Shown: piece by piece, positions 2,201 to 6,033 of the stretch
How the letters are laid out: every line of letters starts with the position of its first letter
Position numbering within the stretch: the stretch's first letter is position 1
DNA from: Actinomycetota bacterium
GTDB lineage: Bacteria; Actinomycetota; Aquicultoria; Aquicultorales; Aquicultoraceae
Reading direction: 5' to 3'
Assembly: GCA_030018005.1 (NCBI GenBank)
Contig: JASEGT010000005.1
Coordinates: 1 to 52,757, forward strand
Length of the DNA: 52,757 nt
Program-made: the position numbers and the translations under genes
The notes under the pieces: model-generated
Database searches by the model: none
Told to the model about the DNA's origin: nothing
Seen by the model: the letters and a program-made list of their open reading frames with translations, nothing else

Positions 2201-4399
2201 CTAACAGCCACATCCGTTGCCGGAGACGCTCGTCTCCGCAATCAGCCCGGTTCTTATTCTATCAATCAGTTCGCCCGCTTTGCCCTTGTTCCAAGTCGGT
2301 ATCTTCGAGTAATACCCTACAATCCTGGTTATGCCGTAGACCTCTTCCGAACCGCACTCCGGGCAGGCATCCATGAGTCCTCTTGAGGTGCGCCGGCAGC
2401 CTTCGCATACCGTAAACTCGGGGCTGAACGCGATTTGCTCGGCGTGAGTGCCCTTAAAGGTCTTTAAGACGAAGTTCTCGATCGATTTCGCGGAAGGCTC
2501 TTTCTCGCCTAACCAAACATGTATAATCGCACCCGCCTCTATCAGCGGATGGAACAGGCTCTGCTTTCTCACGCGCTCGACGTAGTCTACCGGCGCCTCG
2601 ACCGAGATGTGGATGCTGTTCGTATAGTAATACTCGTTGGTCTCGAGCTTGCCTTTGATGACTTTCTTGGTCTGCGTCGGATAGTACTTCATATCGAGCT
2701 TGGCGAGTCGGTAGCCGGATGATTCGGCCGGCGACTCCTCGAGAACCATCTTGATATCATACTGCTCGGAGAGTTGCCTGCACTTCAAATTCATGTGCGA
2801 GATGACTTTGAGGCCAAATTTCAGGGCTTCGTCCGAGTCGTGAAGCTGCATGCCGGTGTGCGTCTCGACCAGCTCGTTTAGCCCGAGAAGGCCGCAGAGG
2901 TAGGTTAAGCGATCCATCCTTAGGTACGGCTCCCCGTCGCGGGATGAGCACAGCATCGCAAGCGGTCCGCGCTGACCCAGCTCCATCAACTCGCTTATGA
3001 AGGCCTTCTTCTGGACGTGCGCCTTGGCCACCATCTCCATAGTCCGGTTTAGCTCGGCAAAGAGCAATTCGTCGCTGCCCATCGCCTTATATGCGATTCT
3101 CGGCAGGTTGATAGTGACATTTTGCAGTGCCGAGAACCTCATCTTCTCGGGCGCTTTGGCTTCCACCAAGTCTTGTTCGCCCAACTTTAGTTTGAGGCGG
3201 CAGCACTGGCTCACGGTTACCTCATCTCCACGGTCGAAGACGAAGTAGGTGATGCCCTGCTTCGACGCGACATGGCACGCCAGCTCCAGGAATTCTTCCC
3301 AGCCGTTCGTTTTAAAGAATTCGTCGTTGATGTGGAGGAGCGGCTTCGGAAAGACGAAGGTCTTACCGTTCGCATCTCCCTCGAGGTAGACCTCGAACAT
3401 GGCTCTTACGAAAGCCTGCGCCTCTTTTTCATACTCTTTATAGGTCTTGCCGGTGTACTCCCCGCCCGGGCCTACGGCCGGCGTGTCCGCAAAGTGTTTC
3501 GGGATGTTCCAATAGAGGTTGAAATCGGTAAAGGTGACCTGCGAACCTCTAGCACCGGCCAGCTGGTTGAACTCGTATATCAGCATCTGCGCGAGCTGCT
3601 TGATGTTATCGTATGTCCGGTCGACGAGATACGGCGCAAAGAACATGTTGACGGCTTCCCAGCCGACCGCGCCGGCGTAGTGTGCCTGCAGGCTCGAGGC
3701 CATCTTTACCATGTGTCCAATCAAAACCTCAGGGTGACGCGCCGGTTTCGATGTGCTCGTTATGTTGGGAAGCGACAAACCGAACTTCTTGATATATTCG
3801 AGCGAGTGGCCTCCGCAGTATGGTCTGATTATGAATCCGAGGTCATGAAGGTGGAGATCGCCCATCAAGTGCGCGAGCGCCACATCCTCGCTGAAGACCT
3901 TGCGCAGCGCGAACTCTTTGAGAATCGTCTCGGCGAGCGTAAGGTTTATAGACTCCGGATTATGGGTCGTGTTGCTGTTTTCGTTGTTGGCGTTGTTGAT
4001 TATCTCTTCCACATCGAACATCGGCAAGCCGAGGTGCGAGTGTTTCTTGTGCATGATGGTCAAGTTTCTCTGGAGTAGCTCCAAATCGACAAGCTCTCTG
4101 ATGATGCTGGTAGTTATAGAGCTGAAGTTGCTCTCAAAGAGCTTGCGCTCGACCGCATCGGCTATCTCTCTCGCGAGGCTCTCGCTCGCACCGGTCTCTT
4201 TGATGAGCGAGTTCGTTATCTTCTCTTTGTCCCAGATGTTTATTTCGGCTTTGGATGATGTGCTGACCAGGAGCGCGATATCGGTAGCGCTGCCCTCTTC
4301 GGGATGGGTTTTGACGACATTTATGATTCTCTCGTTCTTCAGCTTACTGTCAGGCTCTCTCGATTCTTCGGTCTCTGCTGCGACGCTGAACTTGGACAT
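2201..4399 (-). CDS. nrdD: Anaerobic (class III) ribonucleoside-triphosphate reductase
   Basis: NrdD reduces ribonucleotides to deoxyribonucleotides without oxygen, using a glycyl radical. The 732-residue chain has an N-terminal ATP-cone-like allosteric region (about 25-115) and the large catalytic barrel. Its C-terminus carries a Cys4 zinc site (C665, C668, C679, C682) followed by RIVGYYSK, in which G695 is the expected radical site. The C-terminal tail GNGCGC carries two extra cysteines that could take part in electron transfer. SD GGAGG lies about 10 nt before the ATG at 4399. It sits downstream of nrdR and upstream of its redox partner and activase. Confidence 0.95.
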   Translation of the reverse strand: MSKFSVAAETEESREPDSKLKNERIINVVKTHPEEGSATDIALLVSTSSKAEINIWDKEKITNSLIKETGASESLAREIADAVERKLFESNFSSITTSIIRELVDLELLQRNLTIMHKKHSHLGLPMFDVEEIINNANNENSNTTHNPESINLTLAETILKEFALRKVFSEDVALAHLMGDLHLHDLGFIIRPYCGGHSLEYIKKFGLSLPNITSTSKPARHPEVLIGHMVKMASSLQAHYAGAVGWEAVNMFFAPYLVDRTYDNIKQLAQMLIYEFNQLAGARGSQVTFTDFNLYWNIPKHFADTPAVGPGGEYTGKTYKEYEKEAQAFVRAMFEVYLEGDANGKTFVFPKPLLHINDEFFKTNGWEEFLELACHVASKQGITYFVFDRGDEVTVSQCCRLKLKLGEQDLVEAKAPEKMRFSALQNVTINLPRIAYKAMGSDELLFAELNRTMEMVAKAHVQKKAFISELMELGQRGPLAMLCSSRDGEPYLRMDRLTYLCGLLGLNELVETHTGMQLHDSDEALKFGLKVISHMNLKCRQLSEQYDIKMVLEESPAESSGYRLAKLDMKYYPTQTKKVIKGKLETNEYYYTNSIHISVEAPVDYVERVRKQSLFHPLIEAGAIIHVWLGEKEPSAKSIENFVLKTFKGTHAEQIAFSPEFTVCEGCRRTSRGLMDACPECGSEEVYGITRIVGYYSKIPTWNKGKAGELIDRIRTGLIAETSVSGNGCGC

Positions 4400-4566
4400 G
4401 ACGACTATTACCTCCTGTGAAACCGCCTGTACATTAAAAATACGCTTTGCCTCTGTTCGACTTCGAATATCACTGCGACAAGTAGTGCGATAAAATAGTA
4501 TGTCTACGGCTGATTTTTATAACAAGGATTACTGCGTTATGATCTTAATTTTTGCTTCTAATCGGA

Positions 4567-5013
4567 CTACGTTAGTATCTTCAATTCTTGTGTGAACTCT
4601 TCTAAATCTTTAAAGTCCCGATAAACAGAGGCAAAGCGAATATAAGCCACTTTGTCTACTTCCTTTAGAGCCCTGAGAACCCGGTCTCCGAGTTCTCGAG
4701 ATGCGACCTCGTGCCTAAACTCGTTCCTTAGGCTACTTTCGATATCGTCGACTATCCGCTCGATTGTCTCCCTTTCTACCTGCCTCTTAACAAGCGCTCT
4801 CAAGATACCTTCCAGCAGCTTAGTTCTACTGAACGGCTCGCGTTCCCCGTTCTTCTTGATGATGGTAAGCGGTTGCTCTTCTATTCTTTCAAAGGATGTT
4901 ACTCGTTTGCCGCACTCCAAGCATTCGCGCCTCCTCCGAGTCACGTCGCCCGCTTCGTTCAGCCTCGAATCGATCACCTTTGAATCAGCATAACCGCAGT
5001 AAGGACACCTCAC
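4567..5013 (-). CDS. nrdR: Transcriptional repressor of ribonucleotide reductase genes
   Basis: NrdR is a zinc-finger plus ATP-cone regulator that senses dATP/ATP and represses nrd promoters. The N-terminus VRCPYCGYADSKVIDSR and the later CLECGKR supply the four zinc cysteines; the ATP-cone follows with KKNGEREPFSRTKLLEGI. I place the start at GTG 5013, giving 148 residues, the family norm. AAGGTG lies 7 nt upstream, and the alternative start at 5058 would put the first 15 residues over an NrdR-like box and two DnaA boxes. The gene is followed 167 bp later by nrdD, without a visible terminator, so NrdR probably controls its own target operon. Confidence 0.95.
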   Translation of the reverse strand: MRCPYCGYADSKVIDSRLNEAGDVTRRRRECLECGKRVTSFERIEEQPLTIIKKNGEREPFSRTKLLEGILRALVKRQVERETIERIVDDIESSLRNEFRHEVASRELGDRVLRALKEVDKVAYIRFASVYRDFKDLEEFTQELKILT

Positions 5014-5033
5014 GCTCGCACCTTGTTCACTTG

Positions 5034-5054
5034 TTATCCACAGGTTTATCCACA
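5034..5054 (+). promoter_or_regulatory. Two DnaA boxes in the nrdR leader
   Basis: TTATCCACA occurs twice, at 5034-5042 and 5046-5054, as direct repeats 12 bp apart. Both match the stringent DnaA-box consensus. They lie between the predicted nrdR transcription start (about 5069) and the GTG at 5013. In E. coli DnaA is known to modulate nrdAB, so a link between replication initiation and dNTP supply is plausible here. Confidence 0.6.
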
Positions 5055-5103
5055 ACATATTGAGTGCTTTTTATAAGTATACCACTATATATGGTGTCGG
5101 CAA
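5052..5103 (-). promoter_or_regulatory. nrdR promoter with NrdR boxes
   Basis: On the minus strand TTGCCG (5098-5103) and TATACT (5076-5081) are separated by 16 bp. Those 16 bp (5082-5097) match the NrdR-box consensus acaCwAtATaTwGtgt at about 14 of 16 positions. A weaker second box is at 5052-5067, 30 bp away; paired NrdR boxes about three helical turns apart are the known arrangement. A repressor bound there would cover the promoter completely. Confidence 0.7.
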
Positions 5104-5217: not shown

Positions 5218-5257
5218 CGAACCTATGTTTGTGGGGAACATAGTTTTGTGTTATAGT
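5218..5257 (+). promoter_or_regulatory. lexA promoter with SOS boxes
   Basis: CGAAC-ctat-GTTTG at 5218-5231 fits the Gram-positive LexA operator (CGAAC-N4-GTTYG). A poorer copy, GGAAC-atag-TTTTG, follows at 5235-5248. The promoter TTGTGG (5229-5234), 17 bp, TATAGT (5252-5257) overlaps both. This predicts LexA autorepression and a leader of about 150 nt before the lexA ATG. I see no gene in that leader: the reading frame crossing it has no SD or recognisable protein features. Confidence 0.75.
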
Positions 5258-5412: not shown

Positions 5413-6033
5413 ATGGAGCGCAACGATTTGACCCAGCGTCAGCAGCAGGTATTAGACTATATTCTTAACGAGATAAGCAGAATCGGATATCCCCCATCGG
5501 TTAGAGAGATAGGCCGGGCGGTCGGGTTGACGTCTAGTTCGACCGTCCATAGCCACCTGGCCGCGCTTGAGAAGAAGGGCTACATCAGGCGTGACCCAAC
5601 GAAACCGCGCGCCCTCGAAGTCTTAGATTTTCGAGCGGGCACGGCGGGAGTGAGCCCGTCCAAGGTAAAAAGCCTTCCGCTAGTCGGACGGGTCGCGGCG
5701 GGTATGCCTTTGTTAGCCCAGGAGAACATCGAGGATATTATCGCGGTTCCGGTAGAGATAGCCGGCGATAACAGCTTCCTTCTTAAGGTCACCGGCGAGA
5801 GCATGATAGACGCGGGCATATTCGATGGCGATTATCTGGTCGTGCGCCAGCAAAAAAACGCTGATAACGGAGATATCGTAGTCGCGCTCGTCGAAGACGA
5901 GGCCACCGTCAAGCGTTTCTTTAAGCGAGAAAAAAGCTTCATGCTCAAAGCCGAGAACCCGCGAATGGAACCGATCATCGTCGACGATCTTACAATACTC
6001 GGCAAGGTTGTCGGCTTGATGCGAAAGCTCTAG
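5413..6033 (+). CDS. lexA: LexA repressor, SOS regulator
   Basis: LexA represses DNA-damage genes until RecA filaments trigger its self-cleavage. The 206-residue protein has the winged-helix domain at 1-65 ([23 protein letters not shown] as the recognition region, seen around 27-49). The cleavage bond is A96-G97 in GRVAAGMP, and the serine/lysine dyad is S130 (TGESM) and K167 (EATVKRFF). AGGAGG at 5403-5408 lies 4 nt before the ATG. It is divergent from nrdR, the two sharing a 400-bp control region, and convergent with the BlaI-type gene. Two putative LexA sites are visible in this window: at lexA itself and at 22279 upstream of the transposon-split recA. Confidence 0.96.

Follow-up and report, generated by a model that had tools for sequence, protein, structure and literature searches.

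The window, by which we mean the whole 52,757-bp stretch of DNA analysed here, is contig 84 of a 2.19-Mb assembly (G000) that is 99.42% complete. Four genes follow one another on its minus strand: nrdR (4567–5013; TIGR00244, 183.7 bits), nrdD, encoding an anaerobic (class III) RNR (2201–4399; TIGR02487, 439.5 bits), a thioredoxin/glutaredoxin-like gene (1938–2183; PF13192), and nrdG (NrdG2), encoding the activase (1237–1947; TIGR02495, 172.6 bits). An earlier note on this DNA had described the operon as carrying nrdD and nrdG, and both were found, together with nrdR and the thioredoxin-like gene. Judging from stops upstream in relatives, the start codon of nrdR is probably the GTG at 5013. The NrdR protein is 98–99% identical to those of Candidatus Aquicultor primus and a Candidatus Aquicultor sp., and 78% identical to that of Candidatus Aquicultor secundus; on these identities, the Candidatus Aquicultor assemblies are the nearest named relatives. 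The order nrdR then nrdD was present in every family genome looked at (G001, G003 to G010, and the window, with G002 left out). The lexA gene (5413–6033) is divergent from nrdR, and it is also kept in relatives where a match was found. Between nrdR and lexA, positions 5218–5231 hold a LexA-type box, CGAACCTATGTTTG, which fits lexA autoregulation. Downstream of nrdG, a PhdYefM antitoxin and PIN-domain toxin-like pair was observed (518–1217).

The gap between nrdR and nrdD is approximately 170 bp, and no NrdR box was found in it. Given a gap of this length, nrdD may have its own promoter, which we counted against the operator reading given below. One terminator-like site was detected on the minus strand, inside nrdR (4632–4654), versus 4.8 expected in shuffles. 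A CAGAGGCAAAGCG-like word at about 4443–4455, also in the nrdR-nrdD gap, is kept in all eight aligned sequences and has no Rfam match. The genome also possesses nrdJ, a class II RNR gene. No NrdR or DnaA box passed upstream of nrdJ in the nrdJ loci from 19 class genomes, this genome included, although three of these loci say little (the open frame reaches the end of the locus in G010 and G020, and G008 reads N there). With neither box upstream of nrdJ, the whole dNTP supply need not depend on the nrdR site.

Predicted NrdR boxes in the nrdR promoter

Read along the operon on the minus strand, the region upstream of nrdR contains a −35-like hexamer, TTGCCG (5098–5103), predicted NrdR box 1 (ACACCATATATAGTGG, 5082–5097), a −10 hexamer, TATACT (5076–5081), 10 further bases, predicted NrdR box 2 (ACTCAATATGTTGTGG, 5050–5065) fused to a predicted DnaA box a, 3 bases, a predicted DnaA box b, a putative ribosome-binding site, AAGGTG (5019–5024), and the GTG. 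As had been claimed, NrdR box 1 exactly fills the 16-bp spacer of TTGCCG-N16-TATACT (5076–5103, minus strand). A weaker NrdR box had also been placed 30 bp downstream; box 2 is indeed present, but its distance from box 1 is 32 bp between starts, leaving a 16-bp gap. This agrees with the NrdR geometry described in the accessible text of PMC12176259, in which two 16-bp palindromic boxes lie 15–16 bp apart.

To judge these elements within the genome and the family, we used consensus searches and aligned 11 family (f1) genomes, which represent six genera. At zero mismatches, NrdR box 1 is the sole match to the consensus ACACNATATATNGTG in the 2.19-Mb assembly; at ≤2 mismatches, there are 36 matches, versus 15 in the reversed control. 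Exact NrdR-box pairs are located at nrdR in 10 of the 11 family genomes; three of these carry a single additional match, whose place is not shared between genomes. In the alignment, 11 of 16 columns are invariant in each NrdR box and all six in the −10 hexamer, whereas conservation of the −35-like hexamer is weak (2/6 columns). The promoter hexamer match alone is at chance level (four found versus 3.0 expected in shuffles); the promoter call is instead supported by the invariance of TATACT. Judged from the −10 hexamer, transcription would start near position 5069; NrdR box 2 would then span about +4 to +19, and the DnaA pair would span about +15 to +35.

A predicted double DnaA box overlapping NrdR box 2

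Two perfect DnaA sites had been reported in the leader, and both are there: predicted DnaA box a (5046–5054) and DnaA box b (5034–5042) each match TTATCCACA with no mismatch on the plus strand. They are 3 bp apart, and their orientation is opposite to transcription, so that the minus strand reads TGTGGATAA. Two 9-mers close to TTATCCACA, in the same orientation and 2–3 bp apart, make up what we scored as a double DnaA box, and the accessible text of PMC11317965 describes a preference of E. coli DnaA for double boxes with this spacing. A tentative weak third DnaA site, with three mismatches, may lie at 5023–5031 on the plus strand, its end overlapping the ribosome-binding site. DnaA box a and NrdR box 2 have 5 bp (5050–5054) in common, an overlap absent from the earlier note; NrdR and DnaA should therefore exclude each other at this place.

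The exact word TTATCCACA occurs at 22 sites in the genome, versus seven in the reversed control, and the only close pair is that at 5034–5054. Likewise, the double box TGTGGATAANNNTGTGGATAA at ≤2 mismatches has one match in the genome, at the nrdR promoter, in a count that leaves out the genome's own oriC because dnaA is missing from the assembly. Equal pairs at random places, which had been named as a reason to doubt the site, are thus not scattered through this genome.

Conservation of the sites among relatives

Conservation of the boxes in relatives had been proposed as a check, and they are kept in all 11 family genomes. In the alignment, DnaA box b is invariant and DnaA box a is kept in seven of nine columns, while the surroundings drift: none of the three columns of the DnaA spacer, none of the 10 before NrdR box 2, and 16 of 80 in the upstream stretch are invariant. 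The spacer letters between the DnaA boxes vary, and its length stays at 2–3 bp. In G005 the spacer is 2 bp long and there is one mismatch; in G004 a single mismatch falls in DnaA box a.

We then surveyed the double box within 150 bp upstream of nrdR, allowing ≤3 mismatches in all and a spacing of 2 or 3 bp. The survey covered 51 upstream regions from 58 genomes with an nrdR match; G026 and G053 were cut at contig ends, and G027, G042, G043, G044, and G056 were left out. The double box was found in 11/11 genomes of the family and in seven of eight genomes from three other families of the class (f2, 1/1, with two mismatches; f3, 4/5; f10, 2/2). It was found in none of 14 other class genomes, none of 18 other phylum genomes, and none of the 51 reversed sequences. 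Among the 51 genomes, DnaA pairs are spaced by 2 bp in 12, by 3 bp in 15, and by 14 bp in 12 (other spacings, 0–3), and we read the 14-bp pairs and much of the 2-bp count as reflecting the weak third DnaA site. The composite of NrdR box and DnaA box, at ≤1 mismatch, matched 16 of the 36 class genomes and nothing in the control.

Two other reasons for keeping these bases were considered and rejected. An ATG at 5058 turns the DnaA boxes into codons (MLWINLWITSEQ...); this frame is stopped in seven of the 11 family genomes (G004 to G010), and the DnaA boxes are therefore not kept for a peptide. An RNA element was rejected as well: neither the window nor L211, L205, and L251, three loci with extra copies of the composite, gave an Rfam match.

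The double box near dnaA and the presumed replication origin

No full-length dnaA was found in the window's own assembly, despite its completeness of 99.42%; the best DnaA matches scored 46 and 38 bits. All 19 other genomes searched have dnaA above the cut-off, and the missing gene presumably reflects an assembly gap at oriC. In eight of the 20 genomes (G005, G007 to G010, G014, G016, and G019), a double box at ≤2 mismatches is located 0.95–1.06 kb upstream of dnaA; no such pair near dnaA was found at this threshold in the other 12, which include the dnaA-less G000. The pairs near dnaA are mostly TGTGGAAAGNNNTGTGGATAA-like, and in G016 the first half is TGTGGATAG. G003, G009, and G010 have further double-box matches, none of them shared between genomes. 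From its position, the place approximately 1 kb upstream of dnaA would be oriC, and the double box probably acts at the origin of replication in this lineage. Its recurrence there makes it a likely DnaA site in the lineage and is the best evidence for DnaA as the binder. DnaA of the relatives contains the motif GGRDHTTV, which we counted toward DnaA.

Composite sites beyond nrdR

In a phylum sample, the composite pattern matched in 24 of 396 genomes, and the controls gave no match. Some of these matches are at nrdR, others elsewhere. In G095 and G233, it is located before dnaN, a place that is probably oriC. In G169 and G208, which belong to another order (loci L246 and L247), the gene of the replicative helicase, dnaB, is preceded by a pair of NrdR boxes at a distance of 32 bp and by an overlapping DnaA box. 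Three of eight genomes of the order of G208 matched the composite, namely these two dnaB cases and G120, which is without NrdR boxes. Further matches in the sample are at coding places in G239 and at one unassigned place in G217. In G018, the composite is at what reads like the start of nrdD, where the first 139 residues have no NCBIfam match. Among the diverse nrdR loci described below, two of 44 genomes (44 of the 77 non-Aquicultor loci) have a composite at ≤2 mismatches, both weak.

Intergenic copies of the composite without an nrd gene in front were also observed (G019:C43 at 106787, 112890, and 121527; G031:C25:1627; G024:C2:21314; G028:C24:12960). Most of these copies, including a full composite in f3 genomes, are beside a formate-dehydrogenase-like gene, named by eye, and the three in G019 bracket island-like genes. 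We treat the dnaB composite and the extra copies in f3 as leads only.

A candidate operator for NrdR and DnaA

Starting from the sites observed here, their geometry, conservation, and rarity, we favor, at about an even chance, the reading that they form a composite dual-repressor operator of nrdR-nrdD-trx-nrdG. DnaA on the double box, at about +15 to +35, would repress by clashing with RNA polymerase or by blocking it just past the start. NrdR, with dATP plus ATP, would also repress, and given the five bases that NrdR box 2 has in common with DnaA box a, the two proteins would bind in turn, not together. The operon would be off at high dATP, or at high free DnaA just before initiation, and would open once initiation has passed, at which point DnaA is drawn away or inactivated and the forks use up dNTPs. 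With the sites downstream of the −10 hexamer, the simplest interpretation is that either protein represses, the two acting one at a time. An operator of this kind would couple anaerobic dNTP synthesis directly to replication initiation, and the conserved arrangement suggests that NrdR and DnaA may compete so as to adjust the supply of DNA precursors to replication.

The sign of DnaA control is where the main rival departs from dual repression. At E. coli nrdAB, high DnaA-ATP represses and DnaA-ADP or low DnaA-ATP activates, according to the accessible text of PMC8203912, and nrdAB mRNA is up in a dnaA46 strain, as stated in the part of PMC2500167 at hand; the activation counts against assuming a repressive sign here. 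It speaks for an anti-repressor, whereby DnaA on boxes a and b would evict NrdR from box 2, as the common bases allow, and open the operon at high DnaA, yielding dNTPs just ahead of initiation. We consider this unlikely, as the DnaA sites are downstream of the −10 hexamer and of the start predicted from it, where bound DnaA should hinder RNA polymerase; the stretch from about +15 to +35 falls within that covered by RNA polymerase at initiation. The intergenic composites of f3 genomes, with no nrd gene in front, favor another reading, namely plain NrdR autoregulation beside a small DnaA-holding site that stores or re-nucleotides DnaA, like datA or DARS, with little effect on the operon. However, the double box is tied to nrdR in 11/11 family genomes, at a fixed place relative to NrdR box 2, and datA and DARS contain more DnaA boxes (PMC11853086), which makes this reading improbable.

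DnaA may also be uninvolved. DnaA binding is predicted from sequence and dnaA is absent from the assembly, which would leave room for the TGTGGATAA repeats to bind another protein or to serve the leader RNA; against this, the repeats are exact DnaA-box words at the DnaA-specific spacing of 2–3 bp, the same pair recurs approximately 1 kb upstream of dnaA in eight genomes, and there is no Rfam match, so that we regard it as quite improbable. Finally, TTGTGG, with which an NrdR box ends, is similar to the first bases of a DnaA box, and the fusion would be an easy accident. A product of chance or shared ancestry without function is nevertheless barely credible, and largely excluded by the alignment, since DnaA box b is invariant across six genera while its neighbors drift and the controls gave no match.

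How dNTP supply is matched to the initiation of replication is incompletely understood even in E. coli, in which the effect of DnaA on nrdAB changes sign with DnaA level and nucleotide. The nrdR promoter is short and kept across the family and parts of the class, and the predicted inputs of NrdR and DnaA fall on the same bases of it; their competition is therefore testable with just the two purified proteins and a single short piece of DNA. The site would also add a deep actinobacterial lineage, and a class III operon with nrdR itself in it, to the range of DnaA control of RNR. We offer only as a tentative idea, more doubtful than not, that the composite is a reusable actinobacterial operator (at nrdR-nrdDG, dnaB, and intergenic spots) and a hard-wired mutual-exclusion switch between NrdR, as dATP sensor, and DnaA, as initiator, on common bases, whereby the dNTP level would gate DnaA access and DnaA would gate dNTP synthesis.

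Comparison with known systems

Autoregulated nrdR promoters elsewhere share part of this design: many of the 80 diverse loci examined have NrdR-box-like sites, often as pairs, upstream of nrdR. In contrast, a double DnaA box within 300 bp upstream of nrdR was found in only three of the 80, all from Aquicultor; L009, L010, and L011 are apparently the contigs of G001, G003, and G008, to which they are equal in length, and were not counted as extra support. Lacking in 14/14 other class genomes and 77/80 diverse nrdR loci, the DnaA-pair form of coupling is lineage-bound.

The closest counterparts are in E. coli. Control of RNR genes by DnaA is already known there, including DnaA bound at nrdD (PMC11317965 and PMC8203912, accessible text), and DnaA ChIP-seq targets include the upstream regions of nrdA and nrdD (PMC11317965, same portion). 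As far as the available parts of PMC11317965 and PMC12176259 describe it, nrdDG resembles the present site in having NrdR boxes in tandem, with a gap of 15 bp, and in carrying within its leader a double box of the same orientation to which DnaA binds. In E. coli K-12, counted back from the nrdD ATG, the NrdR boxes start at 208 and 177 bp and the double DnaA box at 35 bp; unlike here, this double box starts 142 bp past the point where NrdR box 2 starts, three mismatches fall in one of its halves, and there is no overlap. The Salmonella counterpart differs further in having FNR sites (PMC2892513). E. coli nrdAB also combines NrdR boxes with a double DnaA box, and both proteins regulate it (PMC8203912, PMC11317965, and PMC12176259, in the text accessible), but it encodes a class Ia RNR and has Fis and IciA inputs (PMC8203912, likewise); an overlap of its NrdR and DnaA sites is not reported in the accessible text of these three papers. 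Nor did the accessible text of the open-licence literature yield a report of an overlapping NrdR/DnaA site. Taken together, leader DnaA sites of anaerobic RNR operons occur in two distant phyla, and the fusion of a DnaA box with NrdR box 2 is not present in E. coli nrdD. Control of RNR genes by both DnaA and NrdR is known in E. coli; what is new here is that the two sites have bases in common.
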